The notes beneath the pieces are model-generated. The model was not told where the DNA came from. It ran no database searches and worked only from the letters and a program-made list of their open reading frames with translations. Source: an uncultured Pseudomonadales bacterium (lineage in GTDB: Bacteria > Pseudomonadota > Gammaproteobacteria > Pseudomonadales > Azotimanducaceae). Taken from it: a stretch of 64,000 nt of DNA. Made by a program: the position numbers and the translations under genes. The stretch spans positions 3,348,001 to 3,412,000 of the forward strand of contig OY282455.1 in NCBI GenBank assembly GCA_958296195.1. Reading direction: 5' to 3'. Below are positions 19,189 through 36,861 of this stretch, one piece after another; the stretch's first letter is position 1, and every line of letters starts with the position of its first letter.

Positions 19189-19683
19189 CTAGCCCGCAGA
19201 TCGCACTACGCCACTTTCCGAATGGATGAAATGCTCTGTGGATTCCGATGCCTCGTCCTTGCACTGGTAAATTCGAATGCGCTCCCTGCCGGTGCCTTGG
19301 TTGTAGAACAAACGGTGGTGGTCCGCAAGAAGGCTGCGCAGCGCATCCACTAAGCAACGGATGGGAAGTTCGCCCCACCCCCCTCCTCCCCCAACCCCCA
19401 CTCAAAACCAGATAAGTGGGGCGGAGGTCGAGGATTCTCCGCAGCTCGTTCGCCGCAATTAAGCCGTAGCGCCGACAAGGAAGAGGAAGACCGGCGGCGG
19501 CTTGTTGTCGAACAGCTTGATGTAGGGCAAATTGCCGTCCAGGACATGGGCGGCCATTAGGGTCCACACGTTTTCGTCTCGAGTCGTTTTAGCCGTCTCT
19601 TCGGCCAAGTGCCCTATTTGCGTTGCAAAGATCGCCAAAGCAAAGGCGATAATCCAAAAGGCGTCAGCGCGGGACCACTTCAT
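19189..19683 (-). pseudogene. Internally deleted remnant of a GT-C membrane glycosyltransferase
   Basis: The first 74 codons (19683-19459) match the N-terminus of the intact neighbour at 19680-21404, including LDGNLPYIKLFDNKPP, then end at TAA. Straight afterwards, in another frame, comes a piece of the C-terminal domain (ELRRILDLRPTYLV) and, after a further shift, LLADHHRLFYNQGTGRERIR, which matches the end of the paralogues. Some 400 middle codons are missing. The ATG overlaps the stop of the intact gene (ATGA), so the two were once an operon. A G-rich insertion near 19376-19402 adds to the damage. Confidence 0.85.
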
Positions 19684-21404: not shown

Positions 21405-21500
21405 GTAGGCTATTCTACATTCGGCAGTCCCCGTCGGCTCCGCTCGAACGCTCAGTTGCGCCAAGCTGGGGCTATTCCAACGGATCAGACACAGTGGCAA

Positions 21501-22229
21501 ATGGCCTCTCCCGCCCGCTCGCCTAGGTTCCTCGTGCTGGCCGCCGGCGTCGGCGTCCGGCTGCGTCCGCTGACCTACACAACGCCCAAGGCGCTGGTCG
21601 AGGTTGACGGGGCGCCGCTTTTGGATCGCTGGTTTCGCTGCATTGAAAACTTTTGCGCCCGACCCGCCGAAGTCCTCGTCAACTCGCACCACTTGCATGA
21701 CCAGCTCGCCGACTGGGTGGCCGCCTACGCCCGAAGGTCCAAGTCACATTGGACCGTAGCCCACGAACCCTCGCTGCTCGGCACGGGGGGAACGCTGCGC
21801 AAGCATGCGGAGTGGCTCAACGGCGCAACCGCCAGCATGGTGATCTACGCCGACAACTATTCGAGCATTGATTTGCGGCGCTTCTGGGCCGCTCATGTCG
21901 CTGGGGGAGCGGCGGCAACGATGGCGCTGTTTCGCACCGCAACGCCCCAGACCTGCGGAATCGTGGTTCTGAACGACGCAAACCGAGTGGTTGATTTCCA
22001 GGAGAAACCGAAGGCGCCGGCGGGCAACTTGGCGAACGCCGGCGTGTTGGCCTTCCGAGCGGGAGTTCTCAAATCCCTGCTCAGAGAGGGAGACCGAGAC
22101 TTGGGATACGACGTGCTGCCGCGTTTGGCGGCGGCCGGCTGGCCAATCGACAGTTTTCACTACGACATAGGAACCCATCAGGACCTTGCCTTGGTCAGGC
22201 GCAGGGTGCGCACCGGGGAGATAGGATGA
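21501..22229 (+). CDS. Sugar-1-phosphate nucleotidyltransferase (RmlA/HddC-like)
   Basis: NTP-transferase fold enzyme making an NDP-sugar. The signature AAGVGVRLRPLTYTTPKALVEV is at residues 12-33, followed by PLLDRWF and an Asp in MVIYADNYSSID. It is 242 residues, the size of mannose-1-phosphate or heptose-1-phosphate guanylyltransferases. ATG at 21501 is the first Met before the signature. It overlaps the sulfotransferase start by 4 nt. A decayed paralogue lies at 33976-34130. The exact sugar cannot be read from the sequence. Confidence 0.82.
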   Translation: MASPARSPRFLVLAAGVGVRLRPLTYTTPKALVEVDGAPLLDRWFRCIENFCARPAEVLVNSHHLHDQLADWVAAYARRSKSHWTVAHEPSLLGTGGTLRKHAEWLNGATASMVIYADNYSSIDLRRFWAAHVAGGAAATMALFRTATPQTCGIVVLNDANRVVDFQEKPKAPAGNLANAGVLAFRAGVLKSLLREGDRDLGYDVLPRLAAAGWPIDSFHYDIGTHQDLALVRRRVRTGEIG

Positions 22230-23089
22230 GGTCGTCCGCCGCCGACCCCGCACCGGCCCCGGACCTCGTGTACGGCGCCAACCGGGATTTGACCAGCAAG
22301 ATCAGTACGCATCTGTTTTGCATTGCCCCGAACAATAGCGGCTCGACCTTTTTGAGCCGGGCGCTGGCGACCTGCCGAGCCGCTTGGAGCCTTCCCGACG
22401 AGGGCCAAAAAATCCCCGGCTATGTCGGCCCCGTCACAACGCGGGGCGCGGAGCTCGCAATTTGGGCGGCAGAGCGGCGAGCCATGCAGCTGTTCGCAGA
22501 CCCGCAGCGCCACAATTGGCCGCGCACCCGCAAGGCTTGGTATTTTCACGCTAGGGCGCAGAGCCCGGAAGCGTCCGTTTTCGTCGCCAAGTCGTCGCAA
22601 CAGGTTCTGCAAGTGGGCCAGTTGGCGGAGCATTTCCACAACGCCAAGTTTCTGTTCATGGTGCGCAATCCCTACGCCCTGTGCGAGGGGATCTGCCGCA
22701 ACCACCGCCGTCGCTTCGGACGGCAATCCCAGCGGCAGGCGGTGTCCAAACGGAGCTTGGAGGCGGCCGCCGCGGCCCATGCCGTCAACTGCCTCCGCCA
22801 GCAGCGCAACAACATTGAGGTTTTCGGCGCCCGCGGGGTTTTCTTCACCTACGAAGCCATGTGCGCAGCGCCGGAGCAGGTGGCCAAACAGGTGTACTCA
22901 CTGGTGCCGGAGCTCGCCGACCTCAACCTGCGCCAGCGCCTGCCGGTCAAGGGCCGGTACTTTGAGATGCTCACGGACATGAACGCCAGGCAGGTCGCCC
23001 GCCTGACCGCGGAGCAGCTAGCCGCCTTCAACCAAGTGTTTCAGGAGCACCAAGACGTTTTGGACTACTTCGGCTACGGAAGGCGGTGA
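22226..23089 (+). CDS. Sulfotransferase-like protein (copy 1)
   Basis: 287 residues. The PAPS-binding 5' loop is visible as LFCIAPNNSGSTFLSRAL near residue 31 and the 3'-phosphate motif as KFLFMVRNPYALCEG near residue 142. It is closely related to the protein at 32844-33791 along its whole length. ATGA overlap with the nucleotidyltransferase indicates an operon. It would transfer sulfate from PAPS to a glycan or a peptide; the acceptor is not known. Confidence 0.75.
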   Translation: MRSSAADPAPAPDLVYGANRDLTSKISTHLFCIAPNNSGSTFLSRALATCRAAWSLPDEGQKIPGYVGPVTTRGAELAIWAAERRAMQLFADPQRHNWPRTRKAWYFHARAQSPEASVFVAKSSQQVLQVGQLAEHFHNAKFLFMVRNPYALCEGICRNHRRRFGRQSQRQAVSKRSLEAAAAAHAVNCLRQQRNNIEVFGARGVFFTYEAMCAAPEQVAKQVYSLVPELADLNLRQRLPVKGRYFEMLTDMNARQVARLTAEQLAAFNQVFQEHQDVLDYFGYGRR

Positions 23090-23136: not shown

Positions 23137-23769
23137 ATGACTCTGAAGCGGGCACCAACAAAGGAGGAATCCGAACAAGCAGCTGTCCGCCCGTCCTCGT
23201 GGCTGCGCAGCCTAAGCGAATCCTTGGAGCGCACCACCTGCCTGCAGCGGGGCGACTCGGCCTCGCTGGAGGCTGGCTTGGAGGCGCTGGTGGGCATCTG
23301 GTCCCGGCTGCGGGCCAGCGGCCGTTGCGTGTTTTGGGCCGGGAACGGCGGCAGCGCGGCGATAGCCTCCCACCTGTCGCAGGACTTGCTCAACAAGTGC
23401 GGCCTCAAGTCCCTGACCTTCAACGACCCCGCGCTGATCACCTGCATGGCCAACGACTACGGCTATCAAGAGACGTTCAAGCGGCCGCTGGCCGCCCTTG
23501 CCCAAGAGGGGGACCTGCTGGTGGCGGTGTCCAGCTCCGGCATGTCGGACAACATCGTCAAGGCCGCGGAAGCGGCTTTGGAAATGGGTTTGGAGGTGGC
23601 GGCCCTTTCCGCCTTCTCCGCCAACAACCGCCTGCAGCGGTTGCCGGCAACACTCTCGTTCCATGTGCCGACGCACAGCTACGGGCAGGCCGAACTGGCC
23701 CACGGCGCCCTGCTGCACGCGGCGCTGGATTGCCTTGAGCGGGAATTGCAGGACCAGCCTGGCGCCTAG
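23137..23769 (+). CDS. gmhA: Phosphoheptose isomerase-like SIS-domain protein
   Basis: SIS-fold sugar isomerase, most similar to sedoheptulose-7-phosphate isomerase GmhA. Key stretches are FWAGNGGSAAIASHLSQDL near residue 65, AVSSSGMSDNIVKAAEAALE near 130 and a conserved C-terminal GQAELAHGALLHAALD. At 210 residues it is slightly longer than GmhA (about 192). With the upstream nucleotidyltransferase it could supply an activated heptose for a surface glycan; the heptose kinase is not in this window. Confidence 0.8.
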   Translation: MTLKRAPTKEESEQAAVRPSSWLRSLSESLERTTCLQRGDSASLEAGLEALVGIWSRLRASGRCVFWAGNGGSAAIASHLSQDLLNKCGLKSLTFNDPALITCMANDYGYQETFKRPLAALAQEGDLLVAVSSSGMSDNIVKAAEAALEMGLEVAALSAFSANNRLQRLPATLSFHVPTHSYGQAELAHGALLHAALDCLERELQDQPGA

Positions 23770-23802: not shown

Positions 23803-25863
23803 ATGCCGCTAAGCTTTCCTTTTGCGCAAGCGCGGGACCGGCCAAACGCCCCGCGCTGGCAGGCGGCCTGCAACTTCCCAGCAAACCGAGGCGCCTTGGT
23901 CCTGTGCGCTTTGTTTCTGGCCGTGGGCGTGGCGGTGGTGGATGACTACGGCGCGTCCTTGGACGAGAAGGACCAGCGACTCCTGGCCGTCAACGTCGCC
24001 GACTATGTGGCAAGGTGGGCGCGCGACCGGGAGGCCCTTGAGCAGGGCTATACGGACGGCGTCGCCAAATACTTCGGCGTCGCCTTTGAGCTGCCGCTGC
24101 TGCTCGTCGAACGCGCCCTGGGGCTCACCGACAGCCGCAGCATCCACCTAACCCGCCACATCCTCACCCACGCCTTCTTTCTGTTCGGCGGATTCTGCTG
24201 CTGGCTGCTGGCGCACCGCCTGTTCAACAGCCGCCTCCTGGCGACCTTCGCCATGCTGTTGTTCCTGCTGCACCCGCGCCTGTACGCCCACTCCTTCTTC
24301 AACTCCAAGGACATCCCCTTCGCCAGCATGTTCATGATCGCCCTGCTGCTCGCACACCGAGCGTTCGACAGAGACACCTTAAGGGCCTTCCTAGCCTGCG
24401 GCGCCGGCGTCGGCGTCCTAATAAACCTCCGCATCATGGGCATCATGCTCTTCGTCGCCGTGCTGGCCATGCGGGCACTTGATTTCATGCAGGCATCCAG
24501 TCGAGAGGAGCGCAAGCACGCGCTGCAGACCGGCAGTGCTTTCGCCTTGGCCGCGATCCTCTCGCTACACGCCATTTCGCCTTACCTTTGGGCCGACCCG
24601 CTGGCTTTTTTTGAAGGCATCGCAACGCTCGCACGCCATCCCCTCCGTGCAATCGAACTGTTCCAAGGCGAATTCTGGGCCGGGTGGGACCTGCCCATGC
24701 GCTATGTGCCCGTTTGGTTCTCCATCAGCACCCCGCCAATCGCCCTGCTGCTGGGCTTGGTTGGAGCGGCCTGGATTCTTCGCCAGGGCGCAAAACGCCC
24801 CATAGAGGTTCTCCGCAACGGGCCGCTGCGCTTCGCGTTCCTGCTGGCGGCCTGCGTTGCGGCACCCGTTGCCGCCGTTGCCGGGCTGGGCGCCACCCTG
24901 TACAACGGCTGGCGCCAAATGTACTTCATCCACGCGCCCTTTTGCCTGTTGGCGACGTTCGGCCTGCACTGGCTCGCAGCCGCCCCAAGGAGCGCCCGCC
25001 AGCGGGCCGGCGCTTACGGCCTAACGGCCCTAGGGTTAGCCACCGTGGTCGCCTCCCTGGTGGCCATCCATCCCTATCAGCACCTCTACTTCAACATTCT
25101 GGTGGATCGAACGACCCCGGAGCGTCTGCGCACCCAATACCAAATGGACTATTGGGGCATCGCAGTGCGCGACGGGCTGGAGCACCTGCTTGAAAGATAT
25201 CCGTCGTCCCCCATTCATGTGGTCGGTGCCTACGGCAACATAGGTCGGTCGGCCGCAATGCTGCCGGAGGCGGACCGGCGAAGAATCTTGAAAAGCCCGG
25301 CGCCGTCCGGCTTTTACAGCTTCTACATTGGCGGCTACCCTTGGCGCCAAGGGCGCGGGAATCCAGCGCAAGGGAGCTTCGCCCCCTCCCTATACGACCG
25401 CAGGATCTACAACAGCACCATCCTAACGGTGGCGGCAGTCGATCCACGCTTGGCCGGGAAGGCGGCGGTTGGCGCCTATCGAAAAATCCTCTCAGCCGCC
25501 AAGGCGGGCGAGGCCGTAGTGCAAGCAAACTTTCAGGTGTACCTGCACGACGGCAACTTGATCTACGTCAACGAAGCCTGCAAGCCGGACGATTTTCTGA
25601 GCCCCTTTTTCCTGCATGTGGTCCCCTTAAGCGTGGACGCGCTGCCGCTGTGGCGCCGGCGGCAAGGCTTCGAACGGCTGGACTTCAGCTTCGTGCAGCA
25701 CGGCCTGAGGTTCGACGGGACGTGCCTAGCGTCCGTTCCCCTGCCCGACTACGGCGTCGCCCGCATCAGCACCGGCCAGACCGCGAGGGACGGCCGCGAA
25801 CTGTGGCGCGGGGAGTTCGTTCCTGCACATTCCGGCCAGCCCGAGAGACTTGCGCTGTTCTGA
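23803..25863 (+). CDS. Large polytopic membrane protein, GT-C glycosyltransferase-like
   Basis: 686 residues with about ten hydrophobic segments in the first 430 residues and a soluble C-terminal region. An acidic loop DDYGASLDEKDQR near residue 48 follows the first helix, as in GT-C enzymes; LHPRLYAHSFFNSKDIPF is a further conserved-looking stretch. It is not closely related to the other GT-C genes here. Its last six codons (from 25844) and its stop fall inside the terminal repeat of the transposon remnant, so the natural C-terminus was replaced by insertion. Confidence 0.65.
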   Translation: MPLSFPFAQARDRPNAPRWQAACNFPANRGALVLCALFLAVGVAVVDDYGASLDEKDQRLLAVNVADYVARWARDREALEQGYTDGVAKYFGVAFELPLLLVERALGLTDSRSIHLTRHILTHAFFLFGGFCCWLLAHRLFNSRLLATFAMLLFLLHPRLYAHSFFNSKDIPFASMFMIALLLAHRAFDRDTLRAFLACGAGVGVLINLRIMGIMLFVAVLAMRALDFMQASSREERKHALQTGSAFALAAILSLHAISPYLWADPLAFFEGIATLARHPLRAIELFQGEFWAGWDLPMRYVPVWFSISTPPIALLLGLVGAAWILRQGAKRPIEVLRNGPLRFAFLLAACVAAPVAAVAGLGATLYNGWRQMYFIHAPFCLLATFGLHWLAAAPRSARQRAGAYGLTALGLATVVASLVAIHPYQHLYFNILVDRTTPERLRTQYQMDYWGIAVRDGLEHLLERYPSSPIHVVGAYGNIGRSAAMLPEADRRRILKSPAPSGFYSFYIGGYPWRQGRGNPAQGSFAPSLYDRRIYNSTILTVAAVDPRLAGKAAVGAYRKILSAAKAGEAVVQANFQVYLHDGNLIYVNEACKPDDFLSPFFLHVVPLSVDALPLWRRRQGFERLDFSFVQHGLRFDGTCLASVPLPDYGVARISTGQTARDGRELWRGEFVPAHSGQPERLALF

Positions 25864-26544
25864 AACCCGCCTCCCGCAAGGCTTCCGAAGCACCTGAGAT
25901 TATTTTTCAACCCACTTTTCGACGATGGCATGCGGGTTTGCGGGGCGTTGGGGGGTCGGATTCGGGCATTTCCAACCCATTTGCCGGGCTGGGATTTGGA
26001 GAAAGGCGTGGCTGTGGGATGCGCACCGCATCCGCCCGCTGCTGGACACGCGGGAGCTGTGGCGCGAGGACTGGGACGCCCTGCCCGCGCAGCCTGGCTT
26101 GCCGAAGCTGCGTCCGCTTCATCCCGATCGGGTGGACAATGTGCTCCACAGCGGGAGGGGGGAGGTCTTTTGCCGGTGTCCGGCGACGGGGGAGATGCGT
26201 CCCATGGCGTTCCAGGGCCACGAGGAGAGGCGCGCCGCGCTGAAGTACCTCTGTCCGGCCGTCGCCTACGGGCTGCAGTGCGCCGGACGTGCGCAGTGCT
26301 GCCGTGATGCGGGGATCCCCGAGTCCAGCTGCGAGGCGACCTACGGAGCAACGCTCCGGGACGGCGCTCGCCCAGACGGCGGGAAACGCCCCCAAAACAC
26401 GCCCAAGCCCCGCCAAGAACTGAAAAACACACCCGAAACGACCCGAACCAGGCCGTTCCGCAGCGCTCCGAGGACGCCAGTGGGCACCGGCGGGGGAAAG
26501 CCTGCGGCAAAAAGGGGCTGGAAAAGGCTACAGCGCAAGTCCCT
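25844..26544 (+). mobile_element. IS remnant with terminal inverted repeats and a transposase fragment
   Basis: Left end AGAGACTTGCGCTGT (25844-25858) and right end ACAGCGCAAGTCCCT (26530-26544) are inverted repeats with one mismatch. Between them the plus frame around 26010-26320 encodes a cysteine-bearing fragment (VFCRCPATGEMRPMAF, then ALKYLCPAVAYGLQCAGRAQ) typical of the middle of DDE transposases. Both the start and the catalytic C-terminal part are missing, so it cannot move by itself. The ends match the MITE at 42845-42982. The IS family is not assigned. Confidence 0.75.
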
Positions 26545-26608
26545 CTTTATGGCGCTGAACAGAAATGGCTGTTATGCTTCCGTTTCCCATTCATGGAGGA
26601 GAATGAAG

Positions 26609-26789
26609 ATGGATCCTGTTGCTGACAACCATAACCCCCCCCCCCCCCCCGGAGGCTGAAGGCGCCGCCCGGAAGCCTTGGAGCAAGCCCGAGCTGCGGC
26701 TTGTGGACTTCTCCCTGAGACCGACCGGAAGCGGCCCCAATCGTGGGGTCAATGAAGAACCTACCCACAGCTACGCTCCCATTTCCTGA
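26609..26789 (+). CDS. Putative lasso-peptide precursor, frame-shifted at a C16 tract
   Basis: ATG at 26609 has GGAGG 9 nt upstream. Reading from it enters 16 consecutive C (26635-26650) and ends at TGA 26657; with one C fewer, or two more, it would continue as a 59-residue peptide to TGA 26787. That peptide has the leader motif WSKPELRLVDFSLRPT followed by G and the core SGPNRGVNEEPTHSYAPIS. Relative to core Ser1, W is -17, P -14, L -12 and T -2, the lasso leader spacing; Glu9 could close a nine-residue ring. TTG at 26619 would give an in-frame 56-residue version without slippage. An asparagine-synthetase-like cyclase candidate lies 0.85 kb downstream. Confidence 0.65.
26635..26650 (+). repeat. 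Homopolymeric C16 tract inside the precursor gene
   Basis: Sixteen consecutive C residues, by far the longest homopolymer I noticed in the window. It separates the best start codon from the leader-core frame by one base. Such tracts change length by polymerase slippage and switch genes on and off in several bacteria; they are also a common site of sequencing and assembly error. Confidence 0.95.
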
Positions 26790-26801
26790 CCGGCCAAGCC
26801 A

Positions 26802-26830
26802 CCCCGCAAGCCGTAGATGGGCTTGTGGGG
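26802..26830 (+). terminator. Hairpin downstream of the precursor
   Basis: CCCCGCAAGCC (26802-26812) and GGCTTGTGGGG (26820-26830) can pair over 11 bp with one G-U and a 7-nt loop, starting 12 nt after the precursor stop. A short T run follows about 15 nt later, so it may be a terminator or a stabilising 3' hairpin. Confidence 0.5.
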
Positions 26831-26884
26831 CATTTCGGTGCTTTTTGGCGGGTAACCCCCTAATCGGTTCAATGCGGCTCTACT

Positions 26885-27019
26885 AGGGGCACTTGGCGCA
26901 AACCCGAACTGCGGCGGGTGGATTTCTCCCTAGGATAGACCGAAGCCGGCGTCAGGGCGGGCTTCACTGAAGCCGAGGGGAGTCCTCATTGACCCGCATA
27001 CACTCCCCACCTTTCCTGA
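26885..27019 (+). pseudogene. Decayed second copy of the lasso-type precursor
   Basis: The DNA aligns with the first precursor from the leader through the stop and beyond (TTTCCTGACCGGCCAAGC is shared at both). The leader reads TWRKPELRRVDFSLG and then hits TAG at the point where the first copy has RPTG. The frame opens at 26864 without a usable start codon, and the core region has several indels. A hairpin (GAGGCC 27034-27039 / GGCCTC 27050-27055) follows the stop, as in copy one. This is a non-functional tandem duplicate. Confidence 0.65.
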
Positions 27020-27234
27020 CCGGCCAAGCGCCCAGAGGCCAACTCCAGGCGGCCTCCTCCCGACCCGCCCAGGCCGGCGACAAAACCTCAGTGTTCGCTG
27101 AAACACCCGCCAACGCACTAGGCATTCGGGGAAACCGCCGCACAAAACCCAGGGTGCAAGTCCCTCGGGAACGGAATGCTGGACGTGCGGTCGCCCTTCC
27201 GTCAAAATAGAAATCGATTTCTGTTTTGCATGGA
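27020..27234. other. Spacer between precursor remnant and ATPase remnant
   Basis: Contains the GAGGCC/GGCCTC hairpin at 27034-27055 and a perfect 14-bp palindrome AGAAATCGATTTCT at 27209-27222, 13 nt before the ATPase remnant start, a possible operator. I see no gene in the rest. A stretch around 27146-27170 looks structured but I could not match it to an RNA family. Confidence 0.4.
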
Positions 27235-27557
27235 ATGCCCATGTTGCCCAGAAAAATCGCGCCCGTGCTGCGCAGCCGCCTGGCCCAATTCCCGGCCGCC
27301 GCTGGCGGGCCCATCACTTGCGCACCGCTGACCAACGGGAGATCGATTTGTTGCTGGAGGTGGATTCGGAGCTTTGGGCGCTGGAAATCAAGCTAACCGC
27401 CCAGCCTGGCCCGCAAGACCTCGCACGATTGAACGCCAACGCCGACCTGGTCCGCGCCGACCGGCGCTTCCTAGTGTGTCAGCGCAGCGAACGCATGGAG
27501 AATGGAACGCAAGTCGTCTGCGACCTAGCCGGGCTGGTGGAATGCATCGACCGATGA
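27235..27557 (+). pseudogene. Internally deleted AAA ATPase with DUF4143 domain
   Basis: The first codons (ATG 27235 or 27241) read PRKIAPVLRSRLAQFPAAA, the usual N-terminus before the P-loop of this family. At about 27315 the sequence jumps, in another frame, to the family C-terminus: LRTADQREIDLLLEVDSELW, then LEIKLTAQPGPQDLARLNAN, ending near 27557. The P-loop, the rest of the ATPase and most of DUF4143 are absent. These proteins are about 400 residues when intact. Confidence 0.8.
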
Positions 27558-27633
27558 AAACCTTGCCCACGACTGATGGAGGCCGGGGCAGCCAAGTGAA
27601 AAGGCAGCATGGTTGCGCCTCAACTGGCGTCTT

Positions 27634-29514
27634 TCAGCGGCCCCGCTGCTGGAAGTCCAAAAAGCTGATCGCATTTGAAATTTCCAAAAACGGAATCCTT
27701 CCTTCTCCAAACCGGGATAGGTCCAAGCACTCCAAAAGGCGCTGCACGTCAATGTAACGGGCCCGACTCGGCGGCGGCGAAGCGGCAATTTCCTGACGAA
27801 TCGACAGTAACGCCTCGGTGAAGGACCTGTTAAGGGCTTCAGAGAGCGTCGGCTCGACCTTAGACCGGCGCCAACACACCTGCGGCGGCAGCACGGAGGG
27901 GGCTTGGACGCCTGCGGACAGCGCATGGCGCATCAGCCAACGGGTCGCCGCCGGGCGCTTGAACTGCTCCGGCGGCAGGCCCAAGGCGAACTCCAGCAGG
28001 CGGCGGTCCAGCAGTGGATAACGATACTCCAAGCCGTAGTGGGCGCCACGCGCCGCCCAGCCCTCCAGACGCATGAGCAACAAGCCCATGCGCCACCTCG
28101 CCAACTGGCTGCGCCGAACGCCCACACGAAACCAAGACCTCCGCGGCAGGGGACGCACCCTTTGCGCAAACTCGGGGTGGAGGACGACTCGCTGCGGCAT
28201 GATCGGCTTGCCGCGCAAACGCTTGCCCAACCGGCGCGTGGCCAAGCTCAAATTGAAGCCGTACGGAAAAACCTCCCACAGCGCTTTGGCCGCCTCCCGA
28301 AGAGGACTCTCCCCAACGGCCCGCGTCTCGGCGAAAAACCTAAGCCAACATCCTCTGAGCAGCAGGGCGGCGTAGCGTCCCTGACCAAAGTAGGACATGC
28401 CGTCGTCGCCTCCCCAACCTGAAAGCAGCACCTTCACCCCCTGCGCGGCGGCTTGGCGCCGCACTATGTCCTCGGAACCGCCCGCTCCGAAAGCCTGCGG
28501 AAAGGCGGCGTCCATCCCTAGGTCGGCGACAATGTCCACCGCGTTCGGGCACCCGTAGAACACCTGCAGATCCTCCTGCGCAGCCACGGCGGCAATGGCT
28601 GCGTACTCATCCCCTGGCCGCCTGTCCGGCGGCGCTTCGCCCAAGGGGGGCAGCCAACTGAAGGCGAGCGGCGGCGGGCGCCCTTGGCGCCGCAGTTCTC
28701 GGGCGGTCAGCACAGAGATGCTCGACGAGTCCAGCCCGCCGCTCAGATGGGTTCCCACCGGGTCGGGGCCGTGCAGGCAGTCCCGCACCGCTTGGTGGTA
28801 AAAGTGCAAAAACTGCGCTGCATAGTCGTCGTCCGAGGCCGGCGGCAACCGCGGCAGCTCCTCCGGCCGCCACCAGCGCCGCAGCCGCACGACGCCGCCC
28901 TTGACAACCATGCTGTGGCCCGGCGGCAGCTTGCGCACCGCCCGAAAGAAAGTGCGGGTGGTCGTATGCACGTTCCCCCGGAGAAAGGTGCTCACTATGG
29001 TCTCGTCGAGTTCGTCAGGAACCCCCGGCGCGGCCAGAACGCCCTCCACGGCGCTGGCGAAGGCGAAGCCCCGCGATGTTTCGGCGTAGTAAAACGGCTG
29101 CACGCCGATGTGGTCCCGGGCGCAGAACAAAAGGCCCCGCCCGCTGTCCCAAATGGCGAAGGCGTAGTCCCCAAGCAGGCGGTCGGGGCACTCCCGCCCC
29201 CAACGCCGGTAGGCCGCCAAGATCAAGTCCTGGTCCGCCAGGGCCGAACCGGCGGCAAGCGGCAAGCCGAGTGCGTCGCCAAGCTCGTCCCGATTGTCCA
29301 GCCGGGCGGCGGCCACGACGGCGAGGCCGCCGGTACGCCAGGAGGCTTGCTTGGGCGGGAGCTGCGCCGCGGCCCCGTGGCGCAGCCCAAGGCTCCAGCC
29401 GGTGCCCGACCATGCCGTGCTCTCGGCGCCGTAGTCCGCCATGGCCGCAAGCATGGGGTCCATTTGGCCGGCGCCGCCCCCGCGGCCGGAAACCCAGCCG
29501 CATATCCCTGCCAT
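27634..29514 (-). CDS. Asparagine-synthetase-like enzyme, candidate lasso cyclase
   Basis: 626 residues with an N-terminal class II amidotransferase-like domain and a C-terminal ATP pyrophosphatase domain (THLSGGLDSSSISVLTAREL near residue 260, then VLLSGWGGDDGMSYFG). A true glutamine-dependent asparagine synthetase starts Met-Cys-Gly-Ile; here the start is MAGICGWVSG, so the glutaminase Cys is replaced by Ala, as in lasso macrolactam synthetases that need no ammonia. ATG at 29514 fits the family; ATG at 29538 has a better Shine-Dalgarno (GGAG, 6 nt). It is convergent with the precursor side and divergent from a GT-C gene. Surface-glycan amidotransferase homologues are the alternative. Confidence 0.72.
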   Translation of the reverse strand: MAGICGWVSGRGGGAGQMDPMLAAMADYGAESTAWSGTGWSLGLRHGAAAQLPPKQASWRTGGLAVVAAARLDNRDELGDALGLPLAAGSALADQDLILAAYRRWGRECPDRLLGDYAFAIWDSGRGLLFCARDHIGVQPFYYAETSRGFAFASAVEGVLAAPGVPDELDETIVSTFLRGNVHTTTRTFFRAVRKLPPGHSMVVKGGVVRLRRWWRPEELPRLPPASDDDYAAQFLHFYHQAVRDCLHGPDPVGTHLSGGLDSSSISVLTARELRRQGRPPPLAFSWLPPLGEAPPDRRPGDEYAAIAAVAAQEDLQVFYGCPNAVDIVADLGMDAAFPQAFGAGGSEDIVRRQAAAQGVKVLLSGWGGDDGMSYFGQGRYAALLLRGCWLRFFAETRAVGESPLREAAKALWEVFPYGFNLSLATRRLGKRLRGKPIMPQRVVLHPEFAQRVRPLPRRSWFRVGVRRSQLARWRMGLLLMRLEGWAARGAHYGLEYRYPLLDRRLLEFALGLPPEQFKRPAATRWLMRHALSAGVQAPSVLPPQVCWRRSKVEPTLSEALNRSFTEALLSIRQEIAASPPPSRARYIDVQRLLECLDLSRFGEGRIPFLEISNAISFLDFQQRGR

Positions 29515-29590
29515 CAAGGTTCGGACTCCAAGGTCCATTGGCAACTCCAAGGAAAGCAGAATACCATTCACATGGACAATCACACCTAGT

Positions 29591-31255
29591 GTGCTGCCGC
29601 GCCAAAGACGACCGGAGTGGAACCTGAGCAAGTGCGCAATCCCAGCCGGCGCCGCCGCTTGGACCTTGGTGTTCGCCTTGGCGGTCGGCGCCACGCAAGT
29701 CGGCAGCTTGGAGCGGGAGTCCTTCAACGACGAAAGCACGTTCACGGTGATCGCGGCGAGGGTGCTCGACGGCGAGCTGCCCTATGTCAAGCTCTTTGAC
29801 ATCAAGCCGCCGATGATCTTTCTCCTCCTAGCCGGCGCCATGGCGGCGTTCGGCGAATCCCTGTTCGTGGTTCGGGCCGTGGGCGACCTTTGCCTGCTGA
29901 TGTCCTGCATCGCCGTCTTCGCCATCGCCCGCCGCCGCACCGACTTGGTGTCGGCGGGGCTTGGCGGCCTGGCGCTCATCGCGGTCCACGCGGTGGAATA
30001 TGCATTCGAGACCCGCACCGAACTGCCGGCCATGGCGATGCTCATGGCGGCTCTGTGGCTGCTGCTCGCCCGGCGGGACCAGTGGTGGGCAATTGCCGCG
30101 GCCGGCTTGCTGCTGTCCTTGTCGGTTCTGACGCGCTCCAATCTGGGCCTCGTGGCTGCGGCGCTCTTCGCTTGGCTTCTCACCGCCGCTTTGCGCCCGT
30201 CCCTAGGCGTTCACCGCTGGGCGGCCGCGCTCTTCGCCGGCGCTGGGCTGCTGCCGGCCGCCGGCCTGATTCTGCTTTACGCGAGCGCGGACGCCCTGGC
30301 CGAACTGCGCCTTGCCAACATTGAGGCCGCCCTCGCCTATTCGGGGCAGATCGGCATGTGGCGAGCCTTGCTGCTGCACGGGCGCACTTTCCTGAACGAG
30401 GCGTTGGTGACGCCGCTGTTGCTCCTGCCCTTCTCGGCAACGCTGGTCATCGGCATGGCTGTCTCCCTCCGCAATGGAGGGAGGGAGGAGGGAGGGAGTA
30501 GGGAGGGAGGGAGGAGGGATCGACCCAAGGCGCCAGATTCCCCAACATCCGAGCAAGCGGCGCAAACCGGAGCGCCAGCGGATGGAGGAGCGGCAAGCCG
30601 GGCGGAGCTGGAGTTGCTGTGGCTCACTTTCGCAGCCACTTTTCTGGCCGTTTTGGCAACCGGCAGCGTCTGGCGGCACTACTGGCTGCAGCTGTATCCC
30701 ATAGGTGCGGTTTTCGGCGCATACGGAATCGCTTGGCTGCGTTCCAAGGCGCGTTTGCGCTGGGCTGGATACCTGCTTCCCGCCATCGCGGTCGGCGGCG
30801 CATTGGCGCAAACCGCACCCTCCGCCTTCCGCTTGGCCACGGTTCCGGACCATTTAGCTGAGCGGCATACCGTCAAGGCCGCCGCGGCGGCCATCAAGGC
30901 GGAGCAGCGGCCGGGCGACACCATCCATGCATTCAATCACCAACTTATTTACTGGTATCTGGACATGGCGCCGGTTTCGGCAATCGTCCATCCCTCCAAT
31001 CTAGCCAAGAGCGAGCTCCTGCGGCCGTTGGCCGAAGCCGGCTATGTGGCGGAGGACGAGTTCGGGCGCATCCTAAACCTTCGTCCCACTTATCTGGTCA
31101 CGGTGGTGCAGCCGACGAGCAGGGGACCCATTCCCAACTACCTTCACGGAGAAGACGCGGAGGCTTTTAGCAACCTGCTGAGCGACCACTACCGGGTTTT
31201 CCATGACGACGGCACCGAGCCGAAGGCCCTGAGGGTTTACAAGCTGCGACGCTGA
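29591..31255 (+). CDS. GT-C family (PMT/ArnT-like) membrane glycosyltransferase, second full copy
   Basis: 554 residues from GTG 29591, the start that matches the N-terminal length of its paralogue at 19680-21404. It shares GATQVGSLERESFNDESTFT in the first loop, LPYVKLFDIKPPMIFLLLAG and the C-terminal FGRILNLRPTYLVTVV. About ten hydrophobic segments are visible. A cytoplasmic loop near residues 295-312 is encoded by a GGGA-rich tract (30476-30519) and is not shared with the paralogue. It is 76 bp from the divergent cyclase-like gene. Confidence 0.8.
   Translation: MLPRQRRPEWNLSKCAIPAGAAAWTLVFALAVGATQVGSLERESFNDESTFTVIAARVLDGELPYVKLFDIKPPMIFLLLAGAMAAFGESLFVVRAVGDLCLLMSCIAVFAIARRRTDLVSAGLGGLALIAVHAVEYAFETRTELPAMAMLMAALWLLLARRDQWWAIAAAGLLLSLSVLTRSNLGLVAAALFAWLLTAALRPSLGVHRWAAALFAGAGLLPAAGLILLYASADALAELRLANIEAALAYSGQIGMWRALLLHGRTFLNEALVTPLLLLPFSATLVIGMAVSLRNGGREEGGSREGGRRDRPKAPDSPTSEQAAQTGAPADGGAASRAELELLWLTFAATFLAVLATGSVWRHYWLQLYPIGAVFGAYGIAWLRSKARLRWAGYLLPAIAVGGALAQTAPSAFRLATVPDHLAERHTVKAAAAAIKAEQRPGDTIHAFNHQLIYWYLDMAPVSAIVHPSNLAKSELLRPLAEAGYVAEDEFGRILNLRPTYLVTVVQPTSRGPIPNYLHGEDAEAFSNLLSDHYRVFHDDGTEPKALRVYKLRR
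30476..30519 (+). repeat. GGGA/GGAG purine tract inside a coding region
   Basis: An almost uninterrupted series of GGGAGGGAGG-type repeats, in frame, encoding a Gly/Arg/Glu/Ser-rich loop. It has enough G runs to form a G-quadruplex on the coding strand and looks like an expansion specific to this paralogue. Confidence 0.75.
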
Positions 31256-31306: not shown

Positions 31307-32233
31307 TCAATCACCGGGCCGCACCAGCCAGCCATCGGAGCGTTTGGCGGAGCGCAGATGCGCCAAGGATAGGGACTCCATCCAGGCGTCGTACCAAAAC
31401 CTGAACTCGGCGACCGGCCTTTCATGGTCAATCCAGCGCAGCATGGTCGATGGCGTCCAAGGCTTGACGCTGAAGTTGAAGTGCAGCACCTTGGCGTCCG
31501 CCGCCGCCAAGCCCTCCCGCGCCTGGATCTGGGCTGCGGCCAGCAGAATATAGTTGTAGGTGGAGCTGACCAGCGTTTGCCGCCCCGCGAAATATCTGTT
31601 GTGCAAGAACTGCTTGAAGTGCCGCGTTTCGGTGCCGCGCCAAGTTTCCGGCACCGCCAAAGCTAGCAAGTCCGCATAGGTTTGCTCCCCCAAGAGGCCA
31701 CCATCAAGCACTAGGAATCCGTCATTGAAGGTTTGCCGCAAGGCGCCGGCGCTGCCGGCGGCGGCAGCGTCGTCGAGGGGAGCGAAGGTTGCGGCGTCCC
31801 GGCACCCCCCGCCCAGGGAAACCCAGTCCCGGCAGCACAGCAAATTGCCGGCAGCGCCGAACAACTCGTCTATCGGCTGCAGGAAGAGCAGATCGCCATC
31901 GCAAAGCAGCAACTTTCGATACTCAGCCAACCGATAGGCTTCAAACGCATGCAAATGCGACAAAATGGGAACGAAGCGGGGATGCGCGGCGCCCAGGCGC
32001 TCCAGCCGCTCCTTCAGGCCGGCGGAAACGGGAATGAACCGCACCCGGTCGAACAGCGTTTGCAGGCGCCGCCGCGACTTCTCGGAAAGCCCGTCGTGAA
32101 TCACCGCCACATCCCCCGCAAAGCCGGGATGCACCTTGAGGAAGGACGCGATCATCACCAACGTGCCAGGCAGGTAGCTGTCCGTAGTCACCGTGGCGAG
32201 GCAAACGTCTCGAGTCGATTGTTCCTGCGTCAC
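31307..32233 (-). CDS. GT8-like glycosyltransferase, single domain
   Basis: 308 residues from GTG 32233. Features: N-terminal CLATVTTDSYLPGTLVMI, acidic metal/sugar-nucleotide motif LLLCDGDLLFLQPIDEL near residue 105, FNDGFLVLDGGLL near 180, RYFAGRQTLVSSTYNYIL near 230 and a C-terminal KVLHFNFSVKPWTPSTMLRW. This is the layout of glycogenin/GT8 enzymes using nucleotide sugars. Its start lies 7 nt after the stop of the DUF3604 fragment. It is paralogous to each half of 34135-36177. Confidence 0.78.
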   Translation of the reverse strand: MTQEQSTRDVCLATVTTDSYLPGTLVMIASFLKVHPGFAGDVAVIHDGLSEKSRRRLQTLFDRVRFIPVSAGLKERLERLGAAHPRFVPILSHLHAFEAYRLAEYRKLLLCDGDLLFLQPIDELFGAAGNLLCCRDWVSLGGGCRDAATFAPLDDAAAAGSAGALRQTFNDGFLVLDGGLLGEQTYADLLALAVPETWRGTETRHFKQFLHNRYFAGRQTLVSSTYNYILLAAAQIQAREGLAAADAKVLHFNFSVKPWTPSTMLRWIDHERPVAEFRFWYDAWMESLSLAHLRSAKRSDGWLVRPGD

Positions 32234-32240
32234 TGTCTGG

Positions 32241-32819
32241 TCAATCCTCCAAATGCGTTTCCTGCAGCTCCCCAGCAGTGGTGCCGGTACCCGCCACCGC
32301 GGTTGGCGCATACCAGATGGGGGAGTTCCAAGCCCGCTCCTGAATGGTGGGCGGCAGCGCCGGATTGGGTTCAACGCCAACGCGGACAGCGTCCCAAGTG
32401 GACCAGCGGCAACTGGGATTCTCCAGCACCCGCGCATAGTAGTAGCTCCGCTCGGCGGCGTTGAAGTCCGGGTCTGTCCACAGGACACTGAGCTCCACAT
32501 CGCCCTTGTCGCGGGTCGTGGAGCAGTCGGACAGATTGACCCTTGCGCCGTTGTCGGGGCAACGGTGGTCCATTGGGTCGGGCGTAAGGCCATTCGAGCA
32601 GGCGATGTCGAAGACCCACTCCCGCACCTCGCCGCCGCGCAGCCACCCCTTGACGATCTGGGCACGTTGCAGCCGGCCGGACAGCGGGTCGCGCAGGGCC
32701 CAAAGAAAGAAACTGGGCGCCTGGCGGCTCTTCCCGGCCAGCACACCGCCCATGGGTACGCTCTGGGCATAACCGGCGGCGCAGCCCAGCCATGCAAACC
32801 GGCCCCTAAGTCCGCCCAT
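32241..32819 (-). pseudogene. C-terminal fragment of a DUF3604 protein
   Basis: 192 codons matching the last third of DUF3604 proteins: YAQSVPMGGVLAGKSRQAPS, RLQRAQIVKGWL, LSVLWTDPDFNAAERSYYYA and IQERAWNSPIWYAP. Intact members are about 600-700 residues, so the larger N-terminal part is missing; the upstream sulfotransferase ends at 32844, leaving no room for it. The frame is clean, so a short product could still be made. Confidence 0.75.
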
Positions 32820-32843
32820 AGCGGCGTCGGATTGATTGCCAGC

Positions 32844-33791
32844 TCACGGCAGCCCGCCGCAACGGTTTTCGCCCGGCGCATCCATGAGGTCGTAGCCGAA
32901 GTGATCGAGCAAGTCACGCTGCGGCCGAAACACGGCGTTCATGGCGGCAAGCTGGCCAATATCCAAGCGCATGATTTGCCGCGTATTCATGTCGGTCAGC
33001 ATTTCGTTGTAAGCGCCCTTCACCGGCAGGCGCAGTCGCAACTTAAGATTATCGAGCTCCGGCACAAGCGCTTGGATGCTCCGCACCACCCGCTCCGGGT
33101 CGGCGCACATCGCCTCGTAGGTGAAGAAAACGCCGCGGTCTCCGAAGTCCTCCAAATTGCGGCGCTGCTGGGCCAGGCAGTTGGCAATGTGCGTTGCGGC
33201 CCACTCCTCCAAGCTGCCGCGACCTTGGCTGGTGTACAGGTCCTCGTCCGGGTACTTGCTTCGGTACGCCCGGCAGATGCCTTCGCAGGCGGCGTAGGGG
33301 TTGCGCACCATGAACAGGAACTTGGCGTTGCGGAAGTGGCGGGTCAGCATGTCCAGTTGAAAGAGGTTGCGCGGGGACTTGACCACGAACACCGAGGCGT
33401 CCAGGCTGCGGGCGTAGGCTTGAAAGTACCACGCCTTGCGGGTGCGCGGCCAGTCATAAAGGCTGGGGTCGGTCAAGCGGTTCAGGCGGCGCGGCGCCAA
33501 GGCCCAAAATTTGTTGGGCCGCGGCAAACCCGGAATCAACAACGGGCGCGGCCCGGCGAAGCCGAGCACCTCCTGCCCTTCCCGGCGCAGGTTCCAAGTT
33601 GCCCGGCAAGCGGCGAGCGCCTGCTGCACGAAGGTCGAACCGCTGTGGTTCGGGGAGATGCAGAACAAATGCGTCCGGACCCTTCCCTCCAGGTCGCGGC
33701 CGGCGCCAAACACCAACTTCACTTGGTCGGCATGGGCGCCTTTCCCGTCCTCAGCGAGGGCCACGTCCAAGGTGCGCCGTTGCGGCTTCAA
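32844..33791 (-). CDS. Sulfotransferase-like protein (copy 2)
   Basis: 315 residues from TTG 33791; the exact start is uncertain. 5' PAPS loop LFCISPNHSGSTFVQQAL near residue 43, 3'-phosphate motif KFLFMVRNPYAACEGICRAY near residue 164, and GVFFTYEAMCADPERV shared with copy 1 at 22226-23089. The high similarity of the two copies and their placement at both ends of the island suggest duplication of a sulfation module. Confidence 0.75.
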   Translation of the reverse strand: MKPQRRTLDVALAEDGKGAHADQVKLVFGAGRDLEGRVRTHLFCISPNHSGSTFVQQALAACRATWNLRREGQEVLGFAGPRPLLIPGLPRPNKFWALAPRRLNRLTDPSLYDWPRTRKAWYFQAYARSLDASVFVVKSPRNLFQLDMLTRHFRNAKFLFMVRNPYAACEGICRAYRSKYPDEDLYTSQGRGSLEEWAATHIANCLAQQRRNLEDFGDRGVFFTYEAMCADPERVVRSIQALVPELDNLKLRLRLPVKGAYNEMLTDMNTRQIMRLDIGQLAAMNAVFRPQRDLLDHFGYDLMDAPGENRCGGLP

Positions 33792-33975: not shown

Positions 33976-34130
33976 CAGCCGCCGAAGTTCTGCTAAACTC
34001 ACACCACCGCTTGCAGCGCACATCTAGGTCGGCCGCACGCCTTAGGGAGGCTGGCTGGCGCATGGATGGACTGCACCGCCAATTGGGAACCAAACAGAAT
34101 TTCGGAACTATCAAGGGTTGCGGCGCCTAA
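33976..34130 (+). pseudogene. Internally deleted sugar nucleotidyltransferase remnant
   Basis: The frame reads AAEVLLNSHHRLQ and then, after a few codons, LREAGWRMDGLHRQLGTKQN. The first piece matches PAEVLVNSHHLHDQ near residue 54 of the intact enzyme at 21501-22229, and the second matches its C-terminal AAAGWPIDSFHYDIGTHQD. About 140 codons between them are missing, as is the catalytic N-terminus. The remaining 185 bp back to 33791 hold no gene that I can see. Confidence 0.7.
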
Positions 34131-34134
34131 GCCG

Positions 34135-36177
34135 ATGCCGATACGGCCGGCGCAATGGAACGCTTGCCTGCTCACGGCGACGACCGACGACTTCCTGCCC
34201 GGCACGTTCACGATGCTGCACAGCTTTCTGCAGCAACATCCCGACTTCGACGGGGACATCGTCGTCATCGAAGACGGCCTGTCCGACGCATCGCGTGAAA
34301 TGCTAGCGGCCTCGTTCCGGCAACTGCGGTTCGAGCCGGTCTCATTGGAACTGAAGGAGCGGGTCGCCCGTTTGTGCGCCTTGCACCCAGAACTCACCAC
34401 CCGCAAGGCAAGTTTCCACTTTCTCGAAGCCTTTCGCCTAAGCGGCTATGGCAAGCTGTTCTACTGCGATGGGGACCTGCTGTTTCGAGACTCCATCAAG
34501 GAGCTGCTTGACTCCTCCGCAGCGCTGCTCTGCTGCGCCGACCAATTCGCCCTGCGCGGCGAGCGGCGGGACGCCCTCACCTACCTGCCCGTCAAGGAAG
34601 CAGCAGGGGGCGGCAACGGCGCACCCCCTAGGCCGACTTTAGCGGATACGTTCAACTGCGGGTTCTTAGTTCTAGACGAACGCCTCATGAACTCGGCCGT
34701 GTACGCCGACTTGCTGCGCATGGTGGCGGCGGAGACATGGCGCGGCGTCAAGGCCGTCAGCACCGATCAGCTGGTCCTGAACCGATACTTCGCGGGACGG
34801 CAGACCTTGGTAAGTTCCACCTACAACTACTTGGTTCCCTGCGCGGCCGACATCCGCGCTCGCCAAGGCATCGACGTCGAAGGCGCCAAGGCGCTGCACT
34901 TCAAGCTGCCCATCAAGCCCTGGTCGCCCCAGGCCATGCTGCATTGGGCGCGGCCAAATCCGACCTATGCAATCGCGCCGGGCTTCAAGCTGTGGTACGA
35001 AGCCTATGTGCAATGCTTGGCGGGCGTGAATTTGCGGCACAGGCTGCGCCTCGGGGCCACGGCAACGCCGCGCCCGGGCAACGCGCCGCAACGGCCAGAC
35101 GACGAACCACGCCGGCAACGACGGCCGGCATCGCCAACCCCAATCGCCCCGGCGCGGGACGGAGCGCCTTCCGGCAATCCACGCCTTGCGAAGATCTGCC
35201 TAGCTACGGCGACTTCGGACGACTTCGTACCGGGCACACTGGCCATGCTGGGCACCTTCCTGAAATGCCACCCAAGGTTCGATGGGGACATCCTTGTCCT
35301 GCATGACGGCCTGTCCGACGCGTCTCGAAGGGCGCTGGCCGCGTTGTTCGAGCATCTGCGTTTCGAAGCCATAGCGCCGGAACTCAAGCAGCGCCTAGCC
35401 AGCCTGTCCGCCGCCGAGCCTAAGCTGCGCGACCGTCTGGCGCACTTTTACTCCATTGAGGCGTTTCGGCTGAGCGGCTACCGCAAGGTCCTGTTTTGCG
35501 ACAGCGATCTGCTGTTCCGTGCTTCCGTGGAGGAATTGCTGGATGCGGAGGACGCGCTGATCTGCTGTGGAGACTCTCCCCAGGTGCGTGGCTTGGCCCG
35601 GGACGCCGTGACCTATCTGCCGGCGGCAAAACCAACCGACGCCGCAAGCCGCAAGCAGACTTTGCAGCAGACCTTCAACAGCGGCCTGCTCGTCATTGAC
35701 GCACAGCTAACACGGCCGGCTGTTTACGCCGACCTGCTGGCGATGTTGACGGCCGAGACTTGGGCCAACGTGCAGGTCAGCATCTCGGACCAATTGCTTC
35801 TCAACCGCTACTTCGCCGGCCGTCAGACCTTGGTGAGCTCCACCTACAACTACTTGATCGTGCAAGCCGCCCGCATTCAAGCGAACGAGGGCATCGATCT
35901 CCTCGGCGCGAAGGTGCTGCACTTCCAAACCCCCCACAAACCTTGGCGACCGCAGGCCATGCTGAAGTGGGCGCAAAAGGGGGCGGCGGCCGACATGCTG
36001 CCGAGTTTCAAGCTTTGGTACAACGCCTACATGGACTGCTTGGCGAACGCCTACCTGCAGAACCGCCTTCGACACTCCGGCGCACCAAGGCTGCTTGGAA
36101 AGTTGTCGTGGACGGCAGGGTCAAACAAGGCGTCAGCCCTACCCGGCGACCTCTCTCCAACCCTTGGCGTCCGTTAA
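34135..36177 (+). CDS. Tandem GT8-like glycosyltransferase (two catalytic domains fused)
   Basis: 680 residues from ATG 34135. Two homologous halves, about residues 8-290 and 350-625, each carry the full set of GT8-like motifs: TATTDDFLPGTFTMLHSFLQ and ATATSDDFVPGTLAML; YCDGDLLFRDSI and FCDSDLLFRASV; RYFAGRQTLVSSTYNYL in both; and a C-terminal KPWSPQAMLHW or KPWRPQAMLKW. A Pro/Arg-rich linker joins them. Both halves keep their acidic DxD-type motif, so both may be active. It is convergent with the HPr-kinase-like gene, overlapping it by 39 nt. Confidence 0.8.
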   Translation: MPIRPAQWNACLLTATTDDFLPGTFTMLHSFLQQHPDFDGDIVVIEDGLSDASREMLAASFRQLRFEPVSLELKERVARLCALHPELTTRKASFHFLEAFRLSGYGKLFYCDGDLLFRDSIKELLDSSAALLCCADQFALRGERRDALTYLPVKEAAGGGNGAPPRPTLADTFNCGFLVLDERLMNSAVYADLLRMVAAETWRGVKAVSTDQLVLNRYFAGRQTLVSSTYNYLVPCAADIRARQGIDVEGAKALHFKLPIKPWSPQAMLHWARPNPTYAIAPGFKLWYEAYVQCLAGVNLRHRLRLGATATPRPGNAPQRPDDEPRRQRRPASPTPIAPARDGAPSGNPRLAKICLATATSDDFVPGTLAMLGTFLKCHPRFDGDILVLHDGLSDASRRALAALFEHLRFEAIAPELKQRLASLSAAEPKLRDRLAHFYSIEAFRLSGYRKVLFCDSDLLFRASVEELLDAEDALICCGDSPQVRGLARDAVTYLPAAKPTDAASRKQTLQQTFNSGLLVIDAQLTRPAVYADLLAMLTAETWANVQVSISDQLLLNRYFAGRQTLVSSTYNYLIVQAARIQANEGIDLLGAKVLHFQTPHKPWRPQAMLKWAQKGAAADMLPSFKLWYNAYMDCLANAYLQNRLRHSGAPRLLGKLSWTAGSNKASALPGDLSPTLGVR

Positions 36178-36861
36178 CTGCAGGGCGGCTGAACAAGCGC
36201 CTTGGCCTTGCAAAGGCCCGTCAATTTGTTCCGCCAGCGAACCGAGCTGAAACGAGTGCGCCGGCCGCCTTGCACGGTAAACGGGCACACGTCCGACAAC
36301 GGTGGAAATCGTGCGAAATTGATTGCCGGCCTGCCCCAAGCCGACTAGGTACTTCTTGCGGTAGGCGTACTTGCTCAACCACAGGAACGCATCGCTAGGC
36401 GCAGTCGTACTAAGTTCGATGTCGCCCGAGCCACCGACAGTCAGCACAAAGCAGGCGCGCAGGGCCAGCGGGAAGGCGTAGAACTCATCTATGGGCGCCA
36501 GGTGCTTGTCCATGTCCTCCCGCACTCGCCGGCCGACCCGCGGCCACCAAGCCAGATGATCCAACGCATCGGCCCACAGCCGTGTGCAGGGAAACGCGGG
36601 AAGCACCGTGGGAACAGCGTCGTCCAGAACCACTCCGGCAACGTCGTCAGCCATCATTGGGTAGCCGCGCTTGATCAGCGCGGCGAGCAGCGAGGACTTG
36701 CCGGCCCCGGACTTGCCCAGAAACAGCACCGCGCCGGCGTTCGTCTGCACGGCGCTGGCGTGCAAGGTCGCCACGTCCCGCTGCTGGGCTGATCGGCAAT
36801 TGGGGAGACGCGGGACTGCCCGCCCTGCAAGCGCGTGTAGAGGATCAACGCCACCATGCAA
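36139..36861 (-). CDS. HPr-kinase-like P-loop protein, N-terminally shortened
   Basis: 240 residues. LHASAVQTNAGAVLFLGKSGAGKSSLLAALIKRGYPMMADD (split: His near residue 33, P-loop GKSGAGKS near 49, DD near 68) is the core of HPr kinase/phosphorylase homologues found in lasso-peptide clusters, where they phosphorylate the peptide's C-terminal Ser. Intact relatives have another 80-100 residues in front. Here the frame begins right after the oadB stop, with only TTG 36861 as a plausible start, so the gene is probably 5'-truncated. Its C-terminal end overlaps the convergent GT8 gene. Confidence 0.65.
   Translation of the reverse strand: MHGGVDPLHALAGRAVPRLPNCRSAQQRDVATLHASAVQTNAGAVLFLGKSGAGKSSLLAALIKRGYPMMADDVAGVVLDDAVPTVLPAFPCTRLWADALDHLAWWPRVGRRVREDMDKHLAPIDEFYAFPLALRACFVLTVGGSGDIELSTTAPSDAFLWLSKYAYRKKYLVGLGQAGNQFRTISTVVGRVPVYRARRPAHSFQLGSLAEQIDGPLQGQGACSAALQLTDAKGWREVAG

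Follow-up and report, generated by a model that had tools for sequence, protein, structure and literature searches.

A shared, probably phase-variable repertoire of predicted, putatively decorated lasso peptides in an uncultured Pseudomonadales bacterium

The window analysed here comprises 64,000 nucleotides (positions 3348001-3412000) of the single 4.31 Mb contig that makes up the genome of its host, an uncultured Pseudomonadales bacterium, and its features are collected in Table 1. The frame ending at 26787 translates directly into a leader closing with KPWSKPELRLVDFSLRPTG, followed by the core SGPNRGVNEEPTHSYAPIS. On re-reading, Trp, Pro, Leu, Asp and Thr were found at -17, -14, -12, -8 and -2 of the leader, the places given to them in the first-pass annotation, and re-translation also returned the core as described there, with its length of 19 residues, its Glu at position 9 and its terminal Ser. 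The ORF therefore carries the leader motif Y/W-x-x-P-x-L with Thr at -2, and a core with residue 1 and an Asp or Glu at 7-9. No NCBIfam or Pfam model matched it at the limits used, and no promoter was found in a scan of 25850-27700. A decayed second copy lies shortly downstream.

The ORF had also been described as shorter than 60 codons and cut off from its best start, and so it is, having 56 codons from a TTG while the best ATGs are out of frame. The break is a homopolymer: a run of 16 C separates the Shine-Dalgarno sequence and the two ATGs from the WSKPEL leader. Both ATGs read into the run and through a poly-Pro stretch before their frame ends at 26659. The sole start from which the leader frame stays open is the TTG, which has no Shine-Dalgarno sequence and might give leaky expression of this copy. 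The frame break is likely a regulatory feature rather than a nuisance to gene callers.

Table 1. Features of the precursor locus and its surroundings (positions in the window).
Feature	Position	Strand	Basis or remark
Sugar nucleotidyltransferase-like protein	21516..22229	+	Linked to the peptide by position only
Sulfotransferase (Sulfotransfer_3), possibly in the tailoring set	22226..23089	+	Domain match, tblastn
Shine-Dalgarno GGAGG and start codons ATG 26603 / ATG 26609	26595..26611 (SD 26595-26599)	+	Sequence; SD spacing 9 nt to ATG 26609
Lasso precursor open frame with poly-Pro, leader WSKPEL and core	26619..26789	+	In-frame TTG 26619 without SD; 56 codons; stop 26787-26789
C16 homopolymer, proposed slipped-strand (phase-variation) tract	26635..26650	+	Sequence
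Predicted core SGPNRGVNEEPTHSYAPIS, ring Ser1-Glu9	26730..26786	+	19 residues, Glu at 9, C-terminal Ser; family pattern conserved
Decayed second precursor copy	26873..26986 (about)	+	In-frame TAG; about 85 nt downstream of the window precursor
Lasso-type cyclase (Asn-synthetase homologue), SGGLDSS motif	27634..29514	-	626 aa from likely ATG 29514; NF033535 341 bits
GT8 glycosyltransferase domain of the 31307-32917 ORF	31307..32230	-	Domain match, tblastn
Sulfotransferase (Sulfotransfer_3)	32844..33791	-	Domain match
Tandem GT8-like protein, two domains	34066..36177	+	tblastn, domain match
HprK-related kinase, candidate kinase of the C-terminal Ser	36139..36861	-	GKSGAGKS motif; matches weak or below curated cut-offs

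The best NCBIfam match of the neighbouring cyclase is NF033535, at 341 bits against 163 for asparagine synthase and with a curated cut-off of 525. As NF033535 also matches below its cut-off in 9 of 14 control genomes, this match alone proves little. Among solved structures the cyclase matched amidotransferase/asparagine synthetase chains and no lasso cyclase. The whole genome contains nine or ten cyclases of this type, ten scoring at 225-303 bits in the genome-wide search and two more distant ones at 132-165; by tblastn against the window cyclase, identity is 45-54% for eight of the other nine and 29% for the one at locus L031. Of the leader-binding and leader-cutting partners, PqqD (B1/RRE) has five matches over the Pfam cut-off (PqqD matches 3 of 14 controls). 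One of them, encoded at L023 directly upstream of the cyclase there, resembles the solved lasso RRE TbiB1 (E 6e-12) and reaches 55 bits with NF033536, whose cut-off is 80. B2 is represented by one strong Transglut_core3 protein (this domain is over its cut-off in 1 of 14 controls), which passes NF033537 at 71 bits with a cut-off of 33, and by one weak match below cut-off. The strong B2 comes after an NTP_transf_5 protein, and in one of the related records described below (G059) B2 and the nucleotidyltransferase are fused, an adjacency or fusion reported for Firmicutes lasso clusters in the accessible part of PMC8498205. Since one B2 and few B1 stand against two dozen precursors, maturation would take place in trans.

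The precursor belongs to a family. A search of the genome with the ORF as query returned 17 matches up to E 10, and in the 15 aligned paralogues Trp, Lys, Pro and one Glu are invariant. The profile built from these 15 sequences (A1) gave 24 matches in the genome at E 0.01, a number that may be too low because 120 of the 169 first-look candidates were scored with it. Nothing strong was found with the same profile in 57 relatives, one of them a same-genus genome in a single contig; there were five weak single matches (G034, G037, G040, G043 and G052, E 2e-4 to 0.008). With 24 matches against five weak singles, the family is more than chance. A pattern combining poly-C with W-x-K-P was present in the host genome alone among the 58, its narrow gap range catching just four loci there. 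A pattern search of wider genome contigs, which may exclude records of the host genome itself, gave 67 stretches. Fifteen of them lie in three related records, 14 with a precursor-like leader (the exception being L226), and the remaining 52 were rejected by eye as chance matches. The three records are OY282519 (G058, uncultured Pseudomonadales), OY282353 (G059, uncultured Gammaproteobacteria) and OY282460 (G060, uncultured Pseudomonadales), with 18, 21 and 4 profile matches at E 0.001 (43 in all). Lasso-type cyclases were matched several times in each of them, and in one of eight same-genus genomes (G003). Together with the 24 of the host (G000), the set comprises 67 rows from four genomes, 4 with an internal stop and 63 stop-free, the latter giving 59 distinct peptides.

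Among these 59 precursors, a small residue ([STAGC], 14 to 18 places after the leader Trp) with Glu at position 9 was identified in 45 and is absent in 14 (shuffle mean 9.1; none of 1000 shuffles reached 45). The stricter form [STAGC][GA]x6E occurs in 33 (shuffle mean 1.5, none of 1000 reaching 33). A spacing of 8 was found in 30 (shuffle mean 9.1), partly because neighbouring residues can each act as residue 1. With residue 1 set at the first [STAG]G, Glu is at position 9 in 24, at 10 in 12 and at 11 in 7, lies elsewhere or nowhere in 6, and the motif is missing from 10. For some members, then, the precise point of cleavage is uncertain. The C-terminal residue is Ser in 50 of the 59, and Tyr or Phe occurs within the last ten residues of 58. 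Conservation of the Trp, Pro, Leu and Thr positions and of the core Glu in related genomes had been set as the test of the first-pass reading: Trp, Lys, Pro and the core Glu are conserved, and Thr at -2 is not strictly so, occurring in some members. Genes for the RRE and the protease had been looked for as well, and both are encoded elsewhere in the genome. With these conserved residues, a cyclase next door and B1 and B2 at hand, the proposal of a Ser1-Glu9 lasso precursor is supported, and the window ORF very probably is one. The earlier reading was incomplete, the ORF being one member of a probably phase-variable, tailored and horizontally shared family.

Tblastn of the window proteins revealed recurring modules around the precursors. 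In the 59 of 67 neighbourhoods of 9 kb or more, with matches counted from 60 bits upwards, the precursor has a sulfotransferase no more than 5 kb away in 41, a GT8 protein in 36, a cyclase in 36 and an HprK-related kinase in 22, counts that are biased upwards because the regions were partly chosen around cyclases. Six have none of the four gene types within that distance: G000 133719, 456808 and 2888064, G058 2648973, and G059 687191 and 809758. The kinase of the window reaches 35.5 bits with TIGR04352, whose cut-off is 200, and its matches to solved HPr-kinase structures are weak (E 0.005 at best). In clusters of the paeninodin type, HprK-like kinases attach a phosphate to the C-terminal Ser, as described in the accessible part of PMC8498205, and by analogy the same modification may be expected in this family.

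Other genes were identified near the precursors. Three PMT_2-type membrane glycosyltransferases flank the window locus (19680-21698, 23803-25863 and 29441-31255), one of them with a 95% identical copy at L107 4414-6024, and an SIS/GmhA-like isomerase lies at 23137-23769. A 1.6-kb gene stands beside many lasso modules (L028 13106-14692, with copies at L025, L029, L260, L270, L274 and L275 of 81-90% DNA identity); by eye it encodes an AAA-ATPase/PD-(D/E)XK-like protein.

Close to the start, 43 of the 67 members carry 9 or more consecutive C: 17 of 24 in the host genome, 17 of 18 in G058, 8 of 21 in G059 and 1 of 4 in G060, the other 24 lacking such a run. The 17 tracts of the host range from 13 to 33 C (that of L023, listed as 24, is C12-T-C11). 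Its 4.31 Mb contain 43 runs of at least 9 C in total, and the binomial probability of 17 of these falling inside precursors is about 1e-37 if the 24 genes cover about 6 kb, an extent resting on an assumed gene size of 250 bp. Start codons were picked by a fixed scoring rule (other starts are possible in several genes). In this way a start with at least four bases matching the Shine-Dalgarno sequence was identified in 41 of the 43 tract-bearing copies, in frame with the leader in 12 and out of frame in 13 and 16. This split is as chance would give (chi-square p 0.73). The best start of the other two is likewise out of frame. Among the copies without a run of 9 C, 18 of 24 have a Shine-Dalgarno start and 15 of these are in frame, the exceptions being G059 4238729, 5627993 and 809758; the in-frame share differs between the two classes (Fisher p 1.7e-4).

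Tract length also varies between copies. Two pairs in the host genome, with identical flanks (100 nt upstream, 200 nt downstream), differ in the assemblies in run length alone, C25 against C33 and C13 against C19; one G058 pair keeps C9 in both copies. Orthologues in different genomes, matched by eye, carry from C7 to C33 or no run in their assemblies. The spread of frames and lengths is the pattern expected of hypermutable tracts, to be read with the proviso that these are assembled sequences and that homopolymer miscounts could widen the spread or randomise the frames. Two marks of a contingency locus were found, a long 5' homopolymer whose length decides the frame and, in the assembled sequences, a tract length that varies between otherwise identical copies.

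A protein which we take to be GlnD-like, encoded at 3023-5638 of the window, served for comparison between genomes. Its identity to the host copy is 76% in the same-genus genome G001, where the family is missing, and 55%, 53% and 44% in G058, G060 and G059, where it is present. Blocks including the precursor are 94.4% identical in DNA over 2397 bp (L033 and L262 of G058), 92.9% over 2129 bp (L110 and L261 of G058) and 93.9% over 2259 bp (L025 and L270 of G059). A further block of 5432 bp (L028 and L273 of G059) starts immediately after the precursor, carries cyclase, sulfotransferase and GT8 genes and is 96.6% identical. Set against 44-55% identity of the GlnD-like protein, such near-identical DNA indicates recent horizontal movement, and the comparison provides strong evidence that blocks of lasso genes have passed between distant gammaproteobacteria.

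These observations could be accounted for in other ways. The C runs may be neutral expansions, or errors of homopolymer length in the assemblies, in otherwise ordinary lasso precursors whose true genes are in frame and constitutively expressed. Miscounted homopolymers would give random frames too, and some orthologues with short or no runs are in frame. This explanation is nevertheless unlikely: 43 of 67 genes, from four genomes, have their run at the same place, flank-identical copies differ by 6 and 8 C, and known phase-variable genes contain long G/C runs that are hypermutable, according to the accessible part of PMC8355987. Length error accounts for neither the position of the runs nor their recurrence. 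A programmed site is a different matter, since a C run could let the ribosome or the polymerase slip so that every cell makes some in-frame product, and in the window copy the leader frame is indeed open from a TTG upstream of the run. Programmed slippage should prefer one frame offset, but the frames are divided 12/13/16, and the length of the tract differs between flank-identical copies and between orthologues, making this the least credible of the alternatives and highly improbable.

The window copy might also be a dying pseudogene in which the C run is incidental, like its neighbour at 26873. That decayed copy and the out-of-frame best start suit such a fate, yet no stop interrupts leader or core of the window copy and every motif position is retained. 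An out-of-frame best start is shared by 29 of the 41 tract-bearing members, and no tract-bearing row has a stop inside leader and core; we give the pseudogene reading a small chance. The nature of the product can be questioned as well: enzymes like those of lasso pathways could close an unthreaded macrolactam, which the kinase, GT8 and sulfotransferase proteins then decorate. The cyclases score below the curated lasso cut-off, the lasso topology is a prediction, and in the literature searched, mostly without subscription papers and preprints, no paper from 2019 on joined glycosyltransferase, sulfotransferase and kinase with a lasso precursor peptide. Against an unthreaded ring stand the spacing from residue 1 to Glu9, a B1 like the lasso RRE TbiB1, a B2 above its cut-off and the B2-nucleotidyltransferase fusion of G059, which parallels the Firmicutes lasso clusters in what is accessible of PMC8498205. 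It seems to us rather improbable.

The explanation preferred here, probable on the sequences compared, is a shared, phase-variable repertoire of decorated lasso peptides in which the length of the poly-C tract between the Shine-Dalgarno/ATG and the leader sets translation of the precursor. Replication slippage in the tract of the living cell would change the frame, so leader and core would be made only when the tract aligns the frames of ATG and leader; the sequenced window copy is out of frame with its best ATG. An in-frame precursor would be bound by B1/RRE and cut after the leader by the single strong B2, and one of the nine or ten cyclases would then join residue 1 (Ser in the window copy) to Glu9 in a predicted lasso. 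The HprK-related kinase may phosphorylate the C-terminal Ser, and GT8 and sulfotransferase proteins may add further groups, the order and identity of these modifications being putative. With many precursors, most of them with their own tract, the lasso peptides of a population would form a changing mixture, whose ecological role can be conjectured. Blocks of the genes move between distant gammaproteobacteria. We lean, with less assurance, towards a broader proposal, a contingency library exchanged by horizontal transfer. With up to about two dozen precursors per cell, most independently switched by their own poly-C and served in trans by shared B1/B2 and several cyclases, a clonal population would show random combinations of phospho-, glyco- and sulfo-lasso peptides, perhaps of use in outpacing neighbours, phages or a host.

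The usual view has lasso peptides made by single, fixed gene clusters. If these precursors are contingency genes, natural-product chemistry would come under random on/off switching. Because 29 of 41 tract-bearing genes are out of frame in the assemblies, gene callers and cluster finders are likely to overlook or shorten them, and out-of-frame precursors could be sought anew in related records. The near-identical blocks in distant bacteria make function testable by comparison.

Several known systems share parts of this arrangement, each compared here through the accessible portion of its source. The tailored lasso peptides of the paeninodin/pseudomycoidin type (Firmicutes; kinase, nucleotidyltransferase and sulfotransferase; PMC8498205) have in common the HprK-like kinase, the C-terminal Ser, the sulfotransferase, split B1/B2 and an NTP_transf_5 adjoining or fused to B2. 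The present family differs in belonging to Gammaproteobacteria, in having precursors and cyclases scattered genome-wide with one strong B2, and in its GT8 genes near precursors, W-x-K-P leaders and N-terminal poly-C/poly-Pro tract. The proteobacterial kinase lasso peptides of the S. yanoikuyae type (PMC8498205) share cyclase, kinase and C-terminal Ser; poly-C tracts, present here, and multi-gene switching are not mentioned in that portion. Contingency loci of Campylobacter (PMC8355987, PMC8437040) and Neisseria (PMC5084427) likewise switch genes by hypermutable G/C homopolymers or short repeats, those of Campylobacter being surface-structure genes whereas here the tracts lie in RiPP precursors. 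The nearest case seen is napR/napC of Neisseria gonorrhoeae (PMC11798529), small bacteriocin-like peptide genes with a 5' poly-G (napR) and poly-T (napC) for which the authors infer phase variation; they form one island of two genes, and are not presented as a lasso family or repertoire in the accessible text. Among the literature matches listed, from a search with subscription papers and preprints mostly outside it, none described poly-C control of RiPP precursors, lasso or otherwise. Each element is already known by itself, be it lasso peptides, kinase tailoring or poly-G/C phase variation, and their joining here appears new.

C runs were also identified elsewhere in these genomes. Runs of at least 12 C number 38 in the host, from 0 to 43 in eight same-genus genomes (G002 43, G005 27, the one-contig G001 6 and G003 0), where some of the draft-genome counts may be assembly effects, being clustered or near contig ends, and none in four wider relatives (G009, G013, G039 and G041). 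In the host, runs of 11-31 C lie in or beside other frames at seven loci, which may be further phase-variable genes. Judged by eye, we take these to be a family-2-type glycosyltransferase (L077), the end of a flippase-like protein (L079), an acyl-CoA-dehydrogenase-like start (L085), large repeat proteins (L086, L093 and L106) and a leucine-rich-repeat-like protein (L101). Finally, L032 contains two modules separated by about 6 kb, with tracts of C20 and C22 (7156-7175 and 13107-13128) just upstream of a kinase-like frame. The two copies closely resemble each other over the next 500 nt and are accompanied by PqqD matches and distant Asn-synthetase homologues; these are possibly a second RiPP system with switching tracts.
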